Of a stretch of 64,000 nucleotides of DNA, positions 25,223 to 35,312 are shown in pieces (positions within the stretch are counted from its first letter, which is position 1; the number at the start of each line of letters is the position of its first letter). The stretch spans positions 992,001 through 1,056,000 of the forward strand of contig NZ_BBWW01000001.1 of NCBI RefSeq assembly GCF_001485215.1, read 5' to 3'. A program made the translations under genes and the position numbers. The stretch is from Leptolyngbya sp. NIES-2104 (lineage in GTDB: Bacteria > Cyanobacteriota > Cyanobacteriia > Leptolyngbyales > Leptolyngbyaceae). Under the pieces are notes generated by a model. It was not told where the DNA came from, did not search any database, and was given only the letters and a program-made list of their open reading frames with translations.

Positions 25223-25274
25223 CTATTTTTCCCAAATTTAAAGTGAGCTTTATTTTGACCATTGGGAAAAATAG
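25223..25274. promoter_or_regulatory. 13-bp perfect inverted repeat in the phototaxis leader
   Basis: CTATTTTTCCCAA (25223-25235) and TTGGGAAAAATAG (25262-25274) are perfectly complementary, 26 bp apart, about 55-105 bp before the first gene of the taxis operon. It could be a pair of operator sites or an RNA stem. Confidence 0.6.
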
Positions 25275-25304
25275 ACCTAGAAAATTCTTGGGCAAGTCAT
25301 AAAA

Positions 25305-25327
25305 GCCTAAATCTAGGAAAAATAGGC
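25305..25327 (+). promoter_or_regulatory. possible RBS-masking hairpin before the PatA/PilG gene
   Basis: GCCTA at 25305-25309 can pair with TAGGC at 25323-25327, which touches the ATG at 25328. The loop contains the likely Shine-Dalgarno AGGA. The stem is only 5 bp. Confidence 0.35.
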
Positions 25328-26539
25328 ATGTTAGTTGATGATTCTTCAACCGATTCTCCGAGCGGTTTGCTGGGCATTCGTAGCCGGATGCACTTTAGCG
25401 GACGGTTAGATGTCTTCACCAGCGGACAGCACTGGAGCTTATACCTCTACATGGGTCGGCTCATCTGGGCAACAGGTGGACCGCATCCTCGTCGCCGCTG
25501 GCATCGTTATCTGACTCAGCACTGTCCTCAATTGAATCCGGGCGCAATTGCACTTCCAGCAACCGATACTCCTTGTCATGACTATCATGCACTTGCAGTC
25601 TTGGTCAAACGGCAACAAATCAGTCCAGAACAAGCCGTCGCGGTCATTCGCAGTACGGTTGTCGATGTGCTGTTTGACATTATCCAGCAAGAAGAAACCC
25701 GTCCCGTCACGTTCAAATCCGATGCTGACGACCTGTTAGAGGCATCGCTGGCACTACTCAATGCCGAGCAACTTCTGAGCGAAGTTCAACAACAGTGGAA
25801 TACTTGGCGATCGCTGGGACTTGCCGATCATTCTCCCAACCTTGCACCCGTCCTTCGCCATCCCGAACAACTCCAAGAACACGCCCCAGAAAAAGTTTAT
25901 AAAATGCTCGTCTCGCTCGTAGACGGTCGGAGAACGCTGCGCGACCTCGCGATGCTGATGAAGCAAGACTTACTCCAACTGACCCGCGTTCTCGTGCCGC
26001 TCTATCGAAAGGGACTCGTTGCACTGACTAAAATTCCCGATCTCACGCCTCTAGGAGTGCGCTCAGAAGAGGTGCCAACCTCTGGATCAGCGCGCTCCAG
26101 CGTTCCCAACTCCGGCACAACTCGCTTCGGCATTGTGTCCTCTTCCCCGATCGCAGGTTCAAACAATGCGCCTCTGATAGCCTGCATTGATGACAGCGTG
26201 CGGGAATGCCAAATTATGGAGCGCATTGTCACCGAAGCAGGCTATCAGTTCATAGGCATTCAAGATTCGATTCAGGCATTACCTACTCTGCTAGAGAAAA
26301 AACCGGGATTGATCTTTCTCGATCTCGTCATGCCGATCGCCAATGGCTACGAAATTTGTGCTCAAATTCGTCGAGTGTCCGTCTTCAAGAACACCCCGAT
26401 TGTTATTTTGACGAGTAACGACGGAATCATAGATCGGGTTCGGGCGAAATTCGTCGGCTCTTCGGGATTTCTAGCCAAACCCGTTGATGCCGATCGTGTA
26501 TTAGCTGTCGCACGAAAAGTACTGCCCATTCACGATTGA
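25328..26539 (+). CDS. pixG: PatA/PilG-type response regulator (DUF4388 + receiver)
   Basis: A 403-residue regulator of the PixG/PilG kind. The N-terminal part (about 10-250) is a DUF4388/PatA-like domain (RMHFSGRLDVFTSG near the start, then SLVDGRRTLRDLAMLMKQDLLQLTRVLVPLYRKGLV). After a Ser/Thr-rich linker comes a C-terminal receiver with IACIDDS, phosphoacceptor Asp in IFLDLVMP and the conserved Lys in FLAKPVD. In phototaxis systems it relays signal from the CheA kinase to type IV pilus control. I take the ATG at 25328 with AGGA in front; the longer TTG start at 25262 falls inside an inverted repeat. It is the first gene of the locus 25328-35312. Confidence 0.9.
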   Translation: MLVDDSSTDSPSGLLGIRSRMHFSGRLDVFTSGQHWSLYLYMGRLIWATGGPHPRRRWHRYLTQHCPQLNPGAIALPATDTPCHDYHALAVLVKRQQISPEQAVAVIRSTVVDVLFDIIQQEETRPVTFKSDADDLLEASLALLNAEQLLSEVQQQWNTWRSLGLADHSPNLAPVLRHPEQLQEHAPEKVYKMLVSLVDGRRTLRDLAMLMKQDLLQLTRVLVPLYRKGLVALTKIPDLTPLGVRSEEVPTSGSARSSVPNSGTTRFGIVSSSPIAGSNNAPLIACIDDSVRECQIMERIVTEAGYQFIGIQDSIQALPTLLEKKPGLIFLDLVMPIANGYEICAQIRRVSVFKNTPIVILTSNDGIIDRVRAKFVGSSGFLAKPVDADRVLAVARKVLPIHD

Positions 26540-26577
26540 ACGGTGACAATCCCTCAATCTCAAACTCGGAGGAATGT

Positions 26578-26943
26578 ATGAAAACGGTTCTGGTCGTCGA
26601 AGATAGTATGACCGAAATGCAGCTTCTCACAAGCTATCTACAAAAAGCAGGCTTAACTGTGGTGAGTGCCCAAAGTGGCGAAGAAGCGCAAACGAAACTG
26701 ATGGTTCAAATCCCTGACTTAATCGTGCTGGACGTGATTTTGCCCGGTCAAAGCGGGTTTGAACTCTGCCGCGAACTGAAAGCTGATCCTAAAACAAACC
26801 AAATTCCCGTCGTCATCTGCTCAACCAAAGACACTGATGTCGACATGATGTGGGGCAATCTATTAGGTGCAAACGCTTATCTTCCCAAGCCTGTTGATCC
26901 GACTGCCCTCCTGAGTACGATTCGTCAACTCATGGTGATCTAA
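26578..26943 (+). CDS. pixH: CheY-like response regulator (PixH/PilH type)
   Basis: A 121-residue single receiver: VLVVEDSMTEMQLL, phosphoacceptor Asp in LIVLDVILPGQSGFELCREL, switch Ser/Thr in VVICSTKD and Lys in YLPKPVDP. The ATG at 26578 follows CGGAGGA closely. It is the second gene of the taxis operon, 38 nt after the PatA/PilG gene and 2 nt before a CheW gene. In Synechocystis and Nostoc systems, the equivalent protein helps set pilus polarity or acts as a phosphate sink. Confidence 0.93.
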   Translation: MKTVLVVEDSMTEMQLLTSYLQKAGLTVVSAQSGEEAQTKLMVQIPDLIVLDVILPGQSGFELCRELKADPKTNQIPVVICSTKDTDVDMMWGNLLGANAYLPKPVDPTALLSTIRQLMVI

Positions 26944-26945
26944 CG

Positions 26946-27503
26946 ATGTTTGCTGAATTCTCGACATCGCCCCTGTCAACTGCTTCGATTACCAGTTTGG
27001 AATCATTGCTAAATCCACCTGCTGCGATCGAGCCACTGCAAAAATTTCTCCGGTTCCAGATTGATTCAACTCAATCGATGCTGCTTCCAGTCGAAGAAAT
27101 TGCAGCAGTACAGACGCTTCACATCTTGGACATTTTGCCTGTTCCACAGATGAGCGCCTGTATTTTAGGCATGTCGAACTGGCGAGGTGAAGCACTTTGG
27201 CTGGTGGATTTATCTCAACAGTTAGGCTTTAAAGCGATCGCTCAACAAGCTGACCGAGTTACCACCCTCAGCGCGATCGTGATTCAATCCGGTCGAAAAT
27301 CCCTTGGTCTTATCGTTCGAGAAATTGACGAAATTGAGGAGTACAACCTAGATAACTTGGTGATCCCCTCTCCTGATTTGTTTCCTCAATCCATTTCTCC
27401 ATTTATCAAAGGATATTTTACGCACGATCGCAGCGTTGTCTTAAGTGGTGCCGCGATTCTGCAAGACCCAGCTTTACACGTTCATCATTTGAATTCCCTT
27501 TAA
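26946..27503 (+). CDS. pixI: CheW-like coupling protein (PixI)
   Basis: A 185-residue CheW-domain protein (about 30-175) that links the chemoreceptor to the CheA kinase. Family marks are MLLPVEEIAAVQTL, ILGMSNWRGEALWLVDLSQQLG, and the late LGLIVREIDEIEEYNLDNL. It sits between the CheY gene (2 nt) and the receptor gene (27 nt). A second, different CheW is encoded at the end of the operon. Confidence 0.93.
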   Translation: MFAEFSTSPLSTASITSLESLLNPPAAIEPLQKFLRFQIDSTQSMLLPVEEIAAVQTLHILDILPVPQMSACILGMSNWRGEALWLVDLSQQLGFKAIAQQADRVTTLSAIVIQSGRKSLGLIVREIDEIEEYNLDNLVIPSPDLFPQSISPFIKGYFTHDRSVVLSGAAILQDPALHVHHLNSL

Positions 27504-27530: not shown

Positions 27531-30500
27531 ATGTCCGCATCGCGTCGTACTGAACCCACTCTTGATATGTCCTCTATGTTTTCCGCAGAACCCACCCTTG
27601 AAGAATTTACTGCTTTTCTCTCAGAGACCCCTGTCGAACCAAACGGAATGGATTCTACGATCGACTTTCAAGAACCGACAGAGAACGGTTCTAGCCGACC
27701 GGAATTAGAGGACACTGGGCGAGAAATCCAGCAAGTCGTAACGGCTCTCACTGGATTAAAATCAGAACTCAAACGTGCCGGACTTTTAGACAAGCCAAAC
27801 GTTCAAAACCTCTTTCGTCAAGTGGCTGAGTTTGCTGCAAATCAGCCAAAGAAATCGAATCAGCAAGGCGCATCGAGGGAACTCCGCTATCAACGCAAAC
27901 AACTCAGCGCGATCGCGGCTCAAATGCGCCAAATGCCCGATCTCGATACGTTGCTAAAAGTGTTCGTCAAGATTGCTCGCGAAACATTGCAAGTCGATCG
28001 AGCAATTATTTACCGATTCGGATCACAAGACACTGGCTCGATCGTGGCTGAATCGCTCCAACGGGGATGGACTCCCGCTTTAGGTGAATCACCTGCTGTC
28101 ACTTGCTTTTGTTTCGATCAACCCGAAGACTATGTGAAGCAACAAGTTGTCGTGATCGAAGATGTGAATCGCGTCGATTTGATGCCATACCAACATCAGC
28201 TTCTCGAACAACTTCAAGTAAAAGCCAGTCTGAGCCTACCAATTCGCGTCTCTGGTCAAGCATGGGGCTTACTCGTCGTGCACCAATGCTCTCGTACCCG
28301 ACTCTGGCAAGAAGTTGAAATTAATCTCCTGCATCAACTGTGTTTAGAACTAACGATCAATCTACAGCAGTCGGAGTTCTCGACCAAGTTGGCTCAGCAA
28401 GATGAAGCAGAACGGGCGATTTTCAAAGTGATCGATCGCATTCGTCGATCGCTCGATATTGAGACTGTTTTCCGCACCACAACTCAAGAAATCCGACAGT
28501 TATTGAGAGCCGATCGAGTTAGTATTTATCGCTTTGAAGAAGATTGGAGCGGGGAATTTGTGGCGGAAGCGATCGCGCCTGGTTGGAGTTCGCTACTTCA
28601 AGAGCAACTCGACAATCCCGTCTTGAAGCAAAACGTTATTGAATGTAGTGCGAAAACCTTCGGGAATGGATCAACGCGGTTAACTGATACCTATCTTCAG
28701 CAGACCCAAGGTGGCAAACTCGCGCAAGGAACAGCTTTCCGTACAGTGAGCGATATCTACGAAGCTGGCTTCTCGCCGTGTTACGTCGAAATGCTGGAGC
28801 GTTATCAAGCGAGAGCTTATGTGATTGTTCCGATTCTGCGAAACCAGAAACTTTGGGGATTGCTGGCGGCGTACCAGAATTCGGGTCCCCGTTGTTGGCA
28901 GGATGCCGAGGTTGCACTCATGACACGGCTTGGAACACAGCTAGGAGTCGCGATTCAGCAGGCTGAAAACTTGCAGCAAGTGCGATCGCAAACCGAGCAA
29001 CTCTCAAAAGTCGCGGAACGAGAACGGGCAGCAGCGCGAGTGGTTGATAAGATACGCACATCACTCGACCTCAATACTATCTTCAAGACGGCAACTCAAG
29101 AGGTGCGGCAGTTCTTAAGCACTGATCGCGTGGGGGTCTATCGATTTAACCCAGATTGGAGTGGTGAATTCGTCTCAGAATCCGTTACACCAGGCTGGAT
29201 TTCGCTGATGGAAGAACAACTTCAGAATGCTTCATTCAAGGAGAATGCTAGCGATTGCGACATCAAAACGATCGGGAAAGCGAAATCGATCGATACTTAC
29301 CTCCAGCAAACTCAGGGCGGAGCCTACACGAAAGGGGCGAACTTTAGAGCCGTTGCAGACATCTACAAGGCGGGATTTTCACCCTGCTACCTCAATGTCC
29401 TAGAACATTACCAAGCTAGAGCCTACATCATCGTTCCCATTATGCAGGGTGAGAAGCTGTGGGGATTGTTGGCAGCCTATCAAAATTCTGGGGTGCGGCA
29501 CTGGGAAGAGTCTGAAATTACTTTGATGATTCAAATCGGAACTCAGCTTGGGGTCGCTATTCAGCAGGCGGAGTATCTGAAGCAGGTTGAAACTCAGACC
29601 GAACAATTGGCAAAATCGGCAGCACGAGAACGCAACTTTATTCGCGTGATCGATCAGGTGAATAAGTCGGTACTGGAGCGAATTCGCCAGTTTGATGACA
29701 TTGAAACGATTTTCGGACAAACTACGCAGCAGATTCGACAATGTTTGCAGGTCGATCGCATTGCTATCTATCGCTTCAATGAGGATTGGGGTGGCTCATT
29801 CGTTTCAGAATCAGTTGCACCGGGTTGGTCGCGGTTAGTGGAGGCTGCTGTTCACACGGCTTGGGATGATACCCATCTGCAAGAAACTCAAGGCGGACGA
29901 TATCGGAACAACGAAAGTTTCGTGGTCGATGATATCTACAACGTGGGTCATTTACCGTGCCACATTGAGATGCTAGAACAGTTTCAAGTCAAGGCATATT
30001 TGATTGTGCCAATCTTTTCAGGACAGAAGCTTTGGGGCTTGATGGGAGCTTATCAGAACAGTGGTTCGCGTCACTGGGAAGAATCTGAAGTAAATGTGCT
30101 GACTCAACTCGGTGCCCAGTTAGGAGTCGCAATTCAGCAATCGGAATATCTGTCGCAGATTCAGCGGCAAGCAGAGCGGGAAAAGATTTTAACAAAAGTC
30201 AGCGATCGTATTCGGCACTCGATCGACATTATGCGCCAATCTTCAGATATCAGTTCAATCTTCCAAGTGACAACTCAAGATATTCGCCAACTCATAAAAG
30301 TCGATCGCGCGGCAATCTACCGCTTCAATCCAGACTGGAGCGGTGATTTCATTTACGAATCGGTTGCGAGTGGCTGGGGCAAGCTGGTCGGAACTGAAGT
30401 CGGAACCAACGTAAAAGATACCTACCTGCGTGAGACTCAAGGGGGACGCTACCGCAACCGGGAAAGCTTAGCGATTAGTGATATCTACAATGCAAGTCAC

Positions 30501-31757
30501 GATCCTTGCCACATTGAGCTTTTAGAGAAGTTTGAGGCGAGAGCTTATGTCCTTGTTCCTGTCTTCAAAAGTCAAGAACTTTGGGGAATTCTCGCAGTTT
30601 ATCAGAACGGCGAGACTCGCCATTGGGAAGAAGCGGATGTTGTCTTGCTCAATCAGATTGCGGGACAGCTTGGAGTCGCGCTCGAACAAGTAGACTCGCT
30701 AGAAAAACTCAAAACGCAGTCTGAACAATTGATGCAAGCTGCTCAACGTGAAAAGACTGCAAAAGAACAATTGCAAATGCAGGTGATTCAATTACTAGGA
30801 GCGATCAAGCCTGTATTCTCAGGAGATTTAACGGTTCGAGTTCCAGTCGTTGAAAATGAAGTCGGCACGATCGCTGATGCTTACAACAACACAATTCAGA
30901 GCTTGCGAAAGATTGTGACTCAGGTACAAACTTCCGCAACGAAAGTGACAAGTACTTCTCGAAGCAGTAGTGGTGCGATCATGAAGCTGACTCAGCAAGC
31001 TGAACAGCAACTACAGGAAGTGACTCGTGCTTTAGATCAGCTTCAAGCAATGATTAGTTCGACTCAAGCAGTAGCAGCAAATGCTCGTCAGGTCGAAACT
31101 GCACTACAACAAGCAAACCACACGGTTCGATCAGGTGATGCCGCGATGAACCGGACTGTAGATGGAATTCTAGCGATCCGAGAAACGGTGGCGGAAACCA
31201 GTAAGAAAATTAAGCGACTGAGTGAATCGTCTCAGAAGATCTCGAAAGTCGTGAGTTTGATTAGCAGTTTCACCACTCAGACTCAATTGTTGGCGCTGAA
31301 TGCTTCGATCGAGGCGACGCGTGCTGGAGAGTATGGACGCGGATTTACAGTGGTTGCAGATGAAGTACGATCGCTTGCAAGACAATCCGCTGAGGCGACT
31401 CGTGAGATTGAAAAGCTGGCACAAGAAATTCAATCGGAAACGAGTGCAGTCGCGACCGCAATGGATACTGGAATTCAGCAAGTCGTGAGCGGGACTGGAT
31501 TGGTCAATGACACTCGCCAGCAGTTGACTGAGATCATGACTGCGACTTCACAAATTAGTCAGTTAGTTCATGGGATTACTCAGGCAACCTTAGCGCAGAC
31601 TCAGCAATCCAAACTGGTGACGCAAGCCATGACCGATGTAGCAACCTTAGCGAATAAAAACTCAGCTCAGTCAGGTCAAATTTCTGCTTCGTTCCAAGAA
31701 TTGCTGACCACCGCACAACACCTGCAAACCAGTGTTGGACAGTTCAAAGTGAGTTAG
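27531..31757 (+). CDS. pixJ: soluble photosensory chemoreceptor with five GAF domains (PixJ/PtxD-like)
   Basis: A 1408-residue methyl-accepting protein. It has an acidic, disordered N-terminus; GAF1 (about 137-270); GAF2 (305-476), GAF3 (505-680), GAF4 (710-870) and GAF5 (895-1065); a HAMP-like segment (about 1085-1130); and an MCP signalling domain (to 1408) with [22 protein letters not shown] see no membrane span, unlike Synechocystis PixJ1. GAF4 and GAF5 have the cyanobacteriochrome bilin-Cys motif Cys-His (Cys810, Cys993); GAF2 and GAF3 have Cys-Tyr (Cys417, Cys619) plus an additional Cys (372, 576). GAF1 lacks the Cys. GAF4 keeps Trp778, typical of red/green types. It likely senses light colour or direction and signals to CheA. 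Confidence 0.94.
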
Positions 31758-31839: not shown

Positions 31840-34830
31840 ATGGTTTCTGACCCTCAACTCCGTGAACAAACTTACTCATACTTTCTGACGGAAGCCCAAG
31901 ATTTACTGCAATCGATCGAGCAAAATCTGTTCTTGCTTCGTCAAGATCGTTCCGCTGCGAAAGTCCATGAATTAATGCGTGCTGCTCATACACTCAAAGG
32001 AGCCGCCGCCAGTGTGGGCTTTGAAAGCATGAAATCGATCGCACATTCGTTTGAGGATGTGTTTAAGGCGCTCTATAAGCCTGAAGTCGAAGTTGATTCA
32101 GAGCTAGAGGCGTTGCTGTATGAAGGATACGACTGTTTAAGATTACCGTTGACAACTGCGATCGCAGGAGTCGCATGTCAGGATGCAGAATTGTTGAATC
32201 GATCTGAAGCGATCTTTTCTAAGATTCGGAACAAGCTCGGTAAACATTTTGATACAAATGCTGCACTGCCAACCTCAGCGGAATTAGGGTTTGATATCGT
32301 TCAATCGCTGTTTGAGACGGGAGTGCGGGAGCGGTTAGAACAGTTAGCGATCCTGATTTCAGAAGGAAATTCGACTACGATCGCTCAAACGCTAGAAACT
32401 CAAGCAGAAGTATTCTTAGGATTGGCAGAGTCGCTGAACTTGAGTGGATTTGGTGCGATCGCTCAAACAGCGATGACTGCTCTCAAACGCAATCCAGATC
32501 GAGCGGTTGAAATTGCTCAAGCTGCACTTGCAGATTTTCGTCAAGGACAAATTGCAGTGCTGGAAGGGGATCGTGATTTGGGGGGTGAAGTTTCAGCAGT
32601 GCTCAAACAACTCGCAGGATTGCAAAAATCGCATCGAGTGGAGTCTTCAGGAAAGCAGAGTACTTGGGCGCGATTAAAGGGATTCTTTCAGCGTTCAGCG
32701 ATCGCATCTCCTGCCAAACTTCCAGCAATTACCCCCGCTCAACCTGTTCTGGAGGTCAATGATCCATTTATCGTTGATTCTGAACTTGAAGCGTTAGCGA
32801 CTCAGTTTGAGGCACTTGGAGAAGGATTATCGAAGGGTACAGACTTAGAATTTGAGCGATGGAATGGGTCAGTTTCTCAGGCTGATTCATCGAGTCCAAC
32901 CCCTCAGATCGAATCGGCGCACGTCGCTTCTCAAAAGCTGACCGTTCAAGATACAGTTCGGGTTAATCTAGCACATTTAGAATCGCTGAACTTTACTACC
33001 AGCGAATTGCTAATTCACCAAAACCAGCAATTACTGCAAGACGAACGGCTTCAAGTCATGTTGAGGGAATTGCTCGATCGATTGAATCATCATCAGCAAG
33101 TTTTGACACAACTGCGAGATTGGGCTTTTTTTGCTCCAGAACGCTTGGCAAATCAAACTCAGTCTTTGACAGCGGCAAGCAAGATCAAGCAGCGGTTTGA
33201 TTCACTCGAACTCGATCGATACAATGAACTTCACCTGTTATTGCAAACCGCGTTAACGGGAGCTGAACAACTGGAGACATCAGCAGAAGCGATCGACTTC
33301 TTGGCGCGAGAGTCCCGATTGGCACGAGGAAAGCAGGGAAGACTTTTGACGAATCTGCGGGATGACTTGATGACGGTTCGGATGATGCCGATTGGAGCAA
33401 TTCTGAATCGACTTCCAGCGGTCATTCAACAACTCAGCGAAACGCATGGTAAGACAGTCAACCTAAAGCTAGTTGGAACTCAAGTGATGGTTGATAAAGC
33501 ATTGGCTGAGAAGCTTTATCAACCATTGCTGCATTTAGTTCGCAATGCGTTTGACCATGGGATTGAATCGGATGTCGATCGACAAAGACAAGGAAAGCCG
33601 ATCGGTGAAATCGAAATTCGTGCTTATCAACAAGGAAATCGGACATTTGTTGAAGTGAGCGACGATGGGCGAGGTTTAGATTTACAAGCAATCTGCCAAC
33701 AGGGATTTGAACAACAGCGATTAGCATCGAATCAAGTCGAGCATTTTAATGAAGCTGAATTGTTCAGTTTGTTGTTTGAGCCGGGATTCTCGACTGCTCA
33801 GGGTGTAACCGATCTATCCGGTCGAGGGATTGGGCTGGATGTAGTGCGATCGCAAATGAGAGCGATTCAAGGTAATGTAGCTGTCACCTCTGTTCCAAAT
33901 CAAGGAACAACGTTCTCGATGCAATTACCGCTGACCTTGATTAGTGCGCGATTGCTACTGTGTCAAGCAGGTCAAGCAATCTATGGTGTGATTTCCGAGG
34001 AAGTGACTCGAATTGTGTCACCGAATGCGACAGAAATTGAACAGTTGGGTAATCAACGGATGTTACGCTGGCACTTTGAAGGCGAAGAGCACACCGTTTC
34101 TATTCATTCGCTCCCTCAGGCAATCACCCATACAAATTGGTTAGCGGGAATGCAATCGACAGGAAACGCTACTGAGGAGTTTGAAACTGTTCCGACTTTG
34201 ACTTCATCGATTCTGATTCTCAAACATCAGAAAGGCTGGATTGGAATTGAAGTCGATCGCGTTTTGAATGAACAGGAGTTAGTATTGCGACCCGTGGGAA
34301 GCGCGATCGCGCCTCCAAGCTATGTGTATGGCTGTAGCGTCTTGGGAAATGGTCGATCGCTGTTGGCGATTGATCTCGTGGCGCTGATCGAACAGAATCG
34401 TACCAGGTCCCGCGTTGCGCCTGTTGCTCCACAGTCAGTTGCTCGATCGACTCGAACGATTCTCGTGATTGATGATTCAATGACAGTCCGGCAAGTGGTG
34501 TCAGCGGCGTTAGACAGTGCTGGCTATCAAGTAATTCAAGCAAAAGATGGATTAGATGCGATCGAACAGTTGCAGCAACATCCTGAGATTGAGTTGATTA
34601 CTTGCGATGTTGAAATGCCACGCTTGAATGGATTTGAATTTCTGACGCGGTATGAGCAAGAAGCCCAACTCGCTCAAGTTCCCGTCATTATGTTGACTTC
34701 TCGTAGCAATGAAAAGCATCAGCAGTTAGCAAAACAATTAGGAGCAGCGGCATATCTCACAAAGCCATTTGACCAAACTGAGTTAGTTGAGTTTGTGAAT
34801 CAGTTGATTGAAGGAAAGGTGGCACGATGA
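31840..34830 (+). CDS. pixL: CheA-type hybrid histidine kinase (PixL)
   Basis: A 996-residue CheA hybrid. The N-terminal Hpt domain has the phosphorylated His in AAHTLKGAAASVG (about 48). A long, poorly conserved region follows, then a dimerisation domain, an HATPase (N box HLVRNAFDHGIES, G boxes SDDGRGLDL and LSGRGIGLDVV), a CheW-like domain (from about 700) and a C-terminal receiver with VIDDSMT, Asp in ITCDVEMPRLNGFEF and Lys in YLTKPFD. It is the central kinase of the taxis operon and passes phosphate to the CheY and PatA/PilG proteins. Its last bases overlap the next gene by 4 nt (ATGA). Confidence 0.95.
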   Translation: MVSDPQLREQTYSYFLTEAQDLLQSIEQNLFLLRQDRSAAKVHELMRAAHTLKGAAASVGFESMKSIAHSFEDVFKALYKPEVEVDSELEALLYEGYDCLRLPLTTAIAGVACQDAELLNRSEAIFSKIRNKLGKHFDTNAALPTSAELGFDIVQSLFETGVRERLEQLAILISEGNSTTIAQTLETQAEVFLGLAESLNLSGFGAIAQTAMTALKRNPDRAVEIAQAALADFRQGQIAVLEGDRDLGGEVSAVLKQLAGLQKSHRVESSGKQSTWARLKGFFQRSAIASPAKLPAITPAQPVLEVNDPFIVDSELEALATQFEALGEGLSKGTDLEFERWNGSVSQADSSSPTPQIESAHVASQKLTVQDTVRVNLAHLESLNFTTSELLIHQNQQLLQDERLQVMLRELLDRLNHHQQVLTQLRDWAFFAPERLANQTQSLTAASKIKQRFDSLELDRYNELHLLLQTALTGAEQLETSAEAIDFLARESRLARGKQGRLLTNLRDDLMTVRMMPIGAILNRLPAVIQQLSETHGKTVNLKLVGTQVMVDKALAEKLYQPLLHLVRNAFDHGIESDVDRQRQGKPIGEIEIRAYQQGNRTFVEVSDDGRGLDLQAICQQGFEQQRLASNQVEHFNEAELFSLLFEPGFSTAQGVTDLSGRGIGLDVVRSQMRAIQGNVAVTSVPNQGTTFSMQLPLTLISARLLLCQAGQAIYGVISEEVTRIVSPNATEIEQLGNQRMLRWHFEGEEHTVSIHSLPQAITHTNWLAGMQSTGNATEEFETVPTLTSSILILKHQKGWIGIEVDRVLNEQELVLRPVGSAIAPPSYVYGCSVLGNGRSLLAIDLVALIEQNRTRSRVAPVAPQSVARSTRTILVIDDSMTVRQVVSAALDSAGYQVIQAKDGLDAIEQLQQHPEIELITCDVEMPRLNGFEFLTRYEQEAQLAQVPVIMLTSRSNEKHQQLAKQLGAAAYLTKPFDQTELVEFVNQLIEGKVAR

Positions 34831-35312
34831 ATTCAGTCATAAATCGATCTCAGACTTCAACTCAGAAAGACATCGTTCGATTGATTGTGTTTACGATCGC
34901 AGGCTATCGATTGGGCTTACCCATTGATCAAATTCTGCGCGTCGTGAACTGTCCAGATGAATTCAGAGTACCAACTTCAGATGTGCTTGAATTGCTTCCT
35001 CTAGGGCAGCAGATGATTTCAGTCTTGAATCTGCGATCGCAACTCAGTCTCAATCCAGGACAGAACACACCCGAAAGCGAATTTCTAGTCGCTGCAAAAG
35101 TCGGTACAGAACTTTGTGCGATTCGAGTCGATGCACCACCGGATTTGATCGAAGTGGAGGTGGCAACAATTCGACAGCTACCTGCTCCATATCGTCAAGG
35201 TCATCCGCTCAGCATTGCTAGTCAAGTCGTGGTGTTGCCACAAGGAAAAGCAACCCTAGCCATTTTCTTACTGGAACTGAAGCGAGTTTTAGCGATGTTA
35301 GGAAAGGTCTAG
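34827..35312 (+). CDS. second CheW-like protein of the taxis operon
   Basis: A 161-residue CheW-domain protein: RLIVFTIAGYRLGLPIDQILRVV, then ISVLNLRSQLSL, and FLVAAKVGTELCAIRVD. Its start overlaps the end of the CheA gene by 4 nt (ATGA), so translation is coupled. The operon thus has two CheW proteins of different sequence. This one may act as a competing or output-specific coupling factor. It ends convergently, overlapping by 4 nt the gene at 35309. Confidence 0.88.
   Translation: MNSVINRSQTSTQKDIVRLIVFTIAGYRLGLPIDQILRVVNCPDEFRVPTSDVLELLPLGQQMISVLNLRSQLSLNPGQNTPESEFLVAAKVGTELCAIRVDAPPDLIEVEVATIRQLPAPYRQGHPLSIASQVVVLPQGKATLAIFLLELKRVLAMLGKV

Follow-up and report, generated by a model that had tools for sequence, protein, structure and literature searches.

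A five-GAF cyanobacteriochrome taxis receptor of the PtxD/PixJ type in Leptolyngbya sp. NIES-2104

The receptor gene and its GAF domains

A stretch of 64,000 nucleotides from Leptolyngbya sp. NIES-2104 (contig NZ_BBWW01000001.1, positions 992,001 to 1,056,000; hereafter the window) encodes a cyanobacteriochrome taxis receptor of the PtxD/PixJ type with five GAF domains, identified by Pfam matches, by a check of individual residues, and by a reciprocal best match to the seven-GAF receptor of a Nostoc-type genome (G320). The window lies on a 5.7 Mb contig, and the genome totals 6.39 Mb. The receptor gene (positions 27531 to 31757 of the window; like all features described here, on the forward strand) starts with ATG and encodes 1408 residues; it is the sole open reading frame of at least 800 residues at that place. 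In Pfam, the protein matches GAF over five stretches (E = 1.8e-108) and, at 31182 to 31646, the MCP signalling domain (MCPsignal; E = 3.8e-39), within which a 17-residue stretch is presumably the hairpin tip. This fusion of tandem cyanobacteriochrome GAF domains to an MCP domain is the layout of PtxD/PixJ-type receptors. No earlier report on this very protein was recognised by title in literature listings, of which not every entry was opened.

A Kyte-Doolittle scan of the whole protein with a 19-residue window revealed no membrane span, and a membrane receptor was rejected on this ground. The highest window reaches only 1.22, which by this measure makes the receptor soluble; five of the six top-scoring windows fall in GAF strands or in the HAMP-like part (30819 to 30908), a stretch without a membrane span. 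Within the gene, no direct repeat of at least 60 bases was found, and a recent DNA duplication of GAF2 and GAF3 was rejected for that reason. Scans for promoters (11 found, shuffle mean 11.2) and terminators (6 versus 10.6) did no better than shuffles.

An initial reading made from the sequence alone (the sequence-only reading) had proposed a soluble taxis receptor with bilin-type GAF domains of at least three kinds; the domains and the hydropathy bear this out, and alignment and residue checks found the cysteines and other residues that it had named in GAF1 to GAF5 all in place. Bilin attachment sites are present as C417-Tyr in GAF2, C619-Tyr in GAF3, C810-His in GAF4, and C993-His in GAF5. 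Conservation was read from a family group of 10 rows (the window receptor and loci L039 to L047, from the nine other genomes that scored best in the family search; 9 rows for GAF3, which is absent in L044) and, for combined counts, from 25 additional Nostoc-type rows. All 10 family-group rows have Cys at the columns of C372, C417, C810, and C993, as do all 9 rows with a GAF3 at those of C576 and C619.

GAF1 (27891 to 28391) has Tyr-Gln at the attachment site, and a bilin Cys is lacking there in all 10 family-group and all 25 Nostoc rows. The domain carries two other cysteines, C192 (28104 to 28106) and C194 (28110 to 28112), in the motif V-T-C-F-C-F; C192 aligns with the Cys of DXCF, and every one of the 10 family-group rows has both. 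Neither TCF nor FCF occurs in the 28 Nostoc-type entries tested, some of which are partial or empty. At the DXCF place, GAF2, GAF3, and GAF5 have DTYL, GAF4 has DTHL, and GAF1 has VTCF without the canonical Cys; a DXCF type was rejected because no GAF combines D-x-C-F with a canonical Cys.

GAF4 (29625 to 30161) carries all the marks of the red/green class: Cys-His (C810-His, 29958 to 29963), a Trp before DTHL (W778, 29862 to 29864), a β2 Phe, a helix Phe, and its grouping in the tree. All 10 family-group rows have the Cys-His pair and the Trp. In all these respects the domain is like AnPixJg2 and NpR6012g4, with which it falls, in the careful tree, in a 26-row clade (94 ultrafast bootstrap/83 SH-like approximate likelihood ratio test [SH-aLRT], the value of 94 being just below the tree program's mark of 95); Slr1393g3 is placed outside this clade. 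GAF5 (30177 to 30710) differs from the same two proteins in having Val at the Trp column (V961, 30411 to 30413) together with Cys-His (C993-His, 30507 to 30512), a combination found in 10 of 10 family-group rows. It has the β2 Phe and the helix Phe but lacks the Trp before DTYL, and is by these residues red/green-like only. The closest solved structure is NpR6012g4 (6bhn) for both GAF4 (2.5e-71) and GAF5 (2.8e-62), and GAF5 and its positional counterparts form a clade of their own (100/92). The trees were built from 7 of the 10 receptors in the family group, 4 of the 25 from Nostoc, and 8 of 10 more distant loci (L086 to L095).

Insertion cysteines and predicted colours of GAF2 and GAF3

GAF2 (28407 to 28982) and GAF3 (29019 to 29588) each have, in addition to Cys-Tyr at the attachment site (C417-Tyr, 28779 to 28784; C619-Tyr, 29385 to 29390), an extra Cys inside an insertion preceding DTYL. 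In GAF2 this is C372 (28644 to 28646), in the motif C372-S-A-K, 14 residues upstream of the Asp of DTYL; in GAF3 it is C576 (29256 to 29258), in C576-D-I-K, 12 residues upstream. Published properties of relatives are given here and below as they stand in excerpts of the cited papers. In insert-Cys domains, the second Cys lies within a poorly conserved CXXR/K motif of an insertion loop, Asp and Tyr are kept at the DXCF place, and the published proteins form a second bond at the insertion Cys (PMC5240096). GAF2 and GAF3 have both the CXXR/K motif in the loop (CSAK and CDIK) and DTYL with a first bilin Cys. In the CXXK of the insertion, the D-T-Y-L, and the upstream position of the second Cys they resemble Mbr3854g4, Mbl3738g2, NpF2164g3, and NpR1597g2 (PMC5240096); they sit in a different host protein from this set, and were compared with it by description except for the Nostoc counterparts of NpF2164g3. 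A new two-Cys motif was rejected because the extra Cys fits this described subfamily. The sequence-only reading had correctly separated the extra-Cys motifs from DXCF, and what it had left unplaced is the CXXK/R of the insert-Cys subfamily. The extra cysteines are thereby the hallmark of an already described class, and the receptor is of a kind known from PtxD/PixJ.

All 35 GAF2 rows and all 34 GAF3 rows (family group plus Nostoc-type rows) have the insertion Cys, while the columns around it are mostly variable, S373, N368, and P363 of GAF2 being among the few that are fully kept; in GAF2 of L045, L046, and L047, the fourth residue of CXXK/R is itself replaced by V or Q. From their residues, a two-Cys photocycle, as proposed in the sequence-only reading, is likely for both domains. 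An alternative is that the insertion Cys never contacts the bilin, so that GAF2 and GAF3 would be single-Cys orange or red sensors with a loop used for protein contacts. In relatives, a change of the insertion Cys to Ala leaves a bilin-binding domain that absorbs in the red or orange (PMC5240096), and structure models of both window domains give these loops low confidence; the constancy of the Cys amid drifting neighbours, together with the bond formed at this place in the published proteins, makes this alternative very improbable. The AlphaFold models both have the GAF fold (mean predicted local distance difference test [pLDDT] of 75.2 for GAF2 and 76.7 for GAF3), and that of GAF2 matches the AnPixJg2 structure 3w2z over 176 residues (Z 22.1, root mean square deviation 2.4).

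Two positions, III (a β2 Phe) and X (in helix α4), set the colour of insert-Cys domains (PMC5240096). Mbr3854g4, with F684 and Y777, is a near-UV/green domain (384/560 nm); the double variant F684V Y777F is at 400 and 591 nm, and F684V Y777V at 393 and 583 nm (PMC5240096). Positions III and X were mapped by spacing and read from alignment columns. As a check on the mapping, all 25 Nostoc rows have Phe and Ile in the two columns of GAF5, equal to the published state of NpF2164g5 (β2 Phe present, helix Phe absent; PMC6121604). In the window they are F343 and Y425 in GAF2 and F547 and Y627 in GAF3, the same residues as in Mbr3854g4, and III lies 29 residues from the insertion Cys in both domains, as it does in Mbr3854g4 (F684 to C713). 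The shared Phe/Tyr pair predicts a near-UV/green response for GAF2 and GAF3 rather than the blue or violet sensing of the sequence-only reading; we give this assignment about an even chance. The same receptor might instead carry violet/orange (NpF2164g3-type) or near-UV/blue (NpR1597g2-type) domains at these places. Both colour pairs exist in the insert-Cys subfamily (PMC5240096), and NpF2164g3 is the positional equivalent of the window GAF3; set against this, the Phe/Tyr pair of the window is replaced by Val or Ile with Phe in 24 of the 25 Nostoc GAF3 rows, and the engineered change F684V Y777F moves Mbr3854g4 toward violet/orange (PMC5240096). This choice of colours is plausible, if somewhat less probable than near-UV/green.

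Among relatives, GAF2 has Phe/Tyr at III/X in 9 of 10 family-group rows (Ile/Phe in L045) and in all 25 Nostoc rows. GAF3 has Phe/Tyr in 6 of 9 family-group rows (Phe/Phe in L043, Val/Phe in L046 and L047); the 25 Nostoc GAF3 rows, all with Cys-Tyr at the attachment site, divide into 19 with Val/Phe, 5 with Ile/Phe, and 1 with Phe/Phe. By these residues, near-UV/green is predicted for both domains in five of the six receptors of the same genus in which both are retained, and violet/orange for GAF3 in Nostoc, L046, and L047 and for GAF2 in L045; the last, a broken gene from a draft genome, carries little weight in the argument. The differences at III and X suggest colour swapping between equivalent GAF domains of relatives.

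Insertion cysteines without CXXK/R (for example, CQGM and CDSL) were seen in GAF3, GAF5, and GAF6 of L091, in GAF3, GAF4, and GAF6 of L093, in GAF3 of L090, and in GAF4 of L095. The receptors concerned sit on other branches of the unresolved tree, and the insertion Cys may have had several origins or have been retained repeatedly. The third GAF of L087 and L088, which belong to another family group, has Cys-Tyr without the insertion and the second Cys.

Correspondence to PtxD and the surrounding gene cluster

By reciprocal best match and gene order, the receptor is the five-GAF counterpart of Nostoc PtxD (NpF2164). Of the seven GAF domains of PtxD, at least six carry bilin and two have a second Cys; positive phototaxis is lost in a ptxD mutant (PMC5812497). 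The HAMP-MCP part alone, searched against the one genome G320, finds the seven-GAF receptor at 61% (next 47%) and is found in return at 60% (next 46%); the G320 receptor is a 1774-residue frame in the same six-gene order (locus L086). A scan of named genomes located the Nostoc receptor at 27 loci, of which two pieces from one species (L124 and L126) were left out; the other 25 are complete, with all seven GAF domains. As Nostoc punctiforme PCC 73102 is absent from the 27 loci, NpF2164 was identified via published landmarks. Counted from the first Met, the GAF3 insertion Cys is at 546 in 3 of the 12 Nostoc rows read and at 549 in the other 9, the published residue being C546 (PMC5240096); the 416-residue spacing to the GAF5 Leu of QCYLEILEKIQAKAY is found in 18 of 26 rows (the other 8 having no pattern match), the published Leu of NpF2164g5 being L962 (PMC7504144).

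All 25 complete Nostoc receptors have a non-bilin GAF, two insert-Cys GAFs, three of the Trp type (with Tyr in one row and Cys in one at the Trp column of GAF4), and a Trp-less last GAF, which has Cys-His with Val at the Trp column in 25 of 25. The window receptor (from the Leptolyngbyaceae; Nostoc belongs to the Nostocaceae) shares the order of a non-bilin GAF followed by two serial insert-Cys GAFs, the Trp-less last GAF, the MCP output, and the six-gene cluster; a clear membrane span was likewise absent from the one Nostoc row tested (L102; highest window 1.64, in GAF1). It differs in having five GAF domains versus seven, and in the tuning of GAF3, which is Phe/Tyr versus Val or Ile with Phe in the Nostoc receptors. 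Window GAF2 and GAF3 are 60% identical, versus about 47-50% between window GAF2 and Nostoc GAF2 or GAF3. The proposal of the sequence-only reading that one receptor compares several colours is supported by the kinds of domain present, and the idea is already known from PtxD (PMC5812497).

The receptor gene is the fourth of six cluster genes, whose neighbours overlap by 4 bases or are separated by gaps of 2 to 82 bases. The first encodes a PixG-like regulator with PATAN (DUF4388, 8.1e-10) and response regulator (Response_reg, 1.1e-18) domains (25262 to 26539), and is followed by a PixH-like CheY regulator (26536 to 26943; Response_reg, 1.5e-23), both with a TTG start listed, and a CheW-like adaptor (26946 to 27503; CheW, 6.5e-17); each of the three is present at 9 of the 9 loci L039 to L047. 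Downstream of the receptor are a hybrid CheA with Hpt, HATPase, CheW, and C-terminal receiver domains in Pfam (31840 to 34830; 9 of 9 loci, truncated in L044 where the contig ends) and a second CheW-like adaptor (34827 to 35312; CheW, 1.5e-10; 8 of 9 loci, L044 ending earlier). The order is identical at all nine loci, and all six genes are present at eight; L044 stops inside CheA, and the receptor of L045 is split across three frames. The L044 receptor (genome G022, of the same genus), a 1244-residue frame on a short draft contig, has lost GAF3, with GAF2 joined to the linker preceding GAF4; this is a natural change in GAF number. The ten distant loci are less uniform: L086 and L087 have the six genes in single frames and in the order of the window, L088 has six with CheA in two frames, L090 to L093 have five, and L094, L095, and L089 have fewer.

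In content and order (regulator, CheY, CheW, receptor, and CheA), the cluster resembles the Synechocystis Tax1/Pix system (PixG, PixH, PixI, PixJ, and PixL); PMC12288463 describes what PixG and PixH do. Synechocystis PixJ, unlike the window receptor, has membrane spans and a DXCF bilin GAF.

In a class-wide search, 41 of 388 genomes (the own genome included) matched GAF2-GAF4 at E ≤1e-110, a count that rests on this match, the insertion Cys having been checked in only part of them. In the same-genus draft genome G023, the GAF2 query found nothing strong (best 1.5e-22). The genome of the window has two more MCP genes (frames of 929 and 996 residues) less than 8 kb apart at G000:C1:5134541-5142098, the second with a GAF1-like match (E = 2.5e-15).

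Taken together, the residues, the conservation, and the gene order make it highly probable that the receptor is of the PtxD type, with GAF2 and GAF3 in the insert-Cys class. A number of observations weigh against this reading or parts of it. The HAMP match scores 20 bits, below the Pfam cut-off of 25. The careful tree, which places GAF4 with AnPixJg2 and NpR6012g4, has the insert-Cys domains in an unresolved fan, with GAF2 and GAF3 of the window and the Nostoc domains of this class as separate branches; they are joined in the quick tree only (SH-aLRT 94), in a clade that includes the insertion-less domains of L087 and L088. Window GAF5 and Nostoc GAF7 do not group in the careful tree either, so their shared lack of Trp may represent separate events. 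In the structure models, the ten-residue blocks holding C372 and C576 have mean pLDDT of 52 and 44, C372 (model residue 88) being one residue ahead of a segment below 50 and C576 (model residue 87) within one. NpR1597g2, an insert-Cys domain, holds a stable second bond (PMC5240096), so the two-Cys cycle need not be labile. The III/X colour rule, in the excerpts used here, is based on variants of two proteins in a single paper (PMC5240096); no spectra were found for domains of this protein, and the colours are sequence predictions. Finally, eight other loci of the family search (L048 to L055) match the GAF domains but not the cluster, and this type of GAF is consequently not confined to the receptor.

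A candidate signalling route and its meaning

A mechanism can be outlined in which bilin binding, photocycles, colours, and pilus output are inferred from relatives. The genome has one match to a ferredoxin-type bilin reductase (271 bits), and phycocyanobilin would be bound at C417 in GAF2 and C619 in GAF3. In the dark, C372 and C576 would add to C10 of the bilin, giving a near-UV-absorbing state; near-UV light would then isomerise the bilin and break the second bond, yielding a green-absorbing state. GAF4 would act as a red/green sensor and GAF1 as a non-bilin spacer or dimer domain. GAF5 would be red-absorbing with an altered pocket, perhaps serving as a fast-reverting sensor of light intensity; this last role is proposed by analogy with the last GAF of PtxD, with which GAF5 does not group in the tree, and which appears, written NpF164g7, to be among the fast-reverting domains (PMC6121604). 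Helical linkers would pass the GAF states to the HAMP-like and MCP parts and so set CheA activity, and CheA would phosphorylate the CheY-like and PATAN regulators, whose target would be the type IV pilus motor; an interaction with PilB1 is described for the PATAN regulator PixG (PMC12288463).

The receptor is probably a soluble, several-colour light sensor that steers movement in Leptolyngbya. It could instead govern photokinesis, aggregation, or pilus number: no motility data were found for this strain, and in the widely used type strain of L. boryana movement has not been reported (excerpt of PMC10581220). The content and order of the cluster equal those of the described ptx and pix phototaxis genes, and we consider such other roles unlikely. 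If the colour assignment of GAF2 and GAF3 as near-UV/green holds, green light would reset both the near-UV pair and the red/green GAF, and the receptor would weigh near-UV and red, each against green. More tentatively, and with doubt on our part, we propose a colour-opponent receptor in which green is the shared reset, and whose relatives swap near-UV/green and violet/orange between GAF2 and GAF3 by means of two residues.

The findings extend the PtxD-type, multi-colour phototaxis receptor to the genus of the genetic model L. boryana, and supply exact, testable two-residue predictions of the colour of insert-Cys domains. Should colour swapping between equivalent domains prove real, the family would amount to a natural experiment on the retuning of a steering receptor, achieved by substitutions that have also been made in the laboratory.

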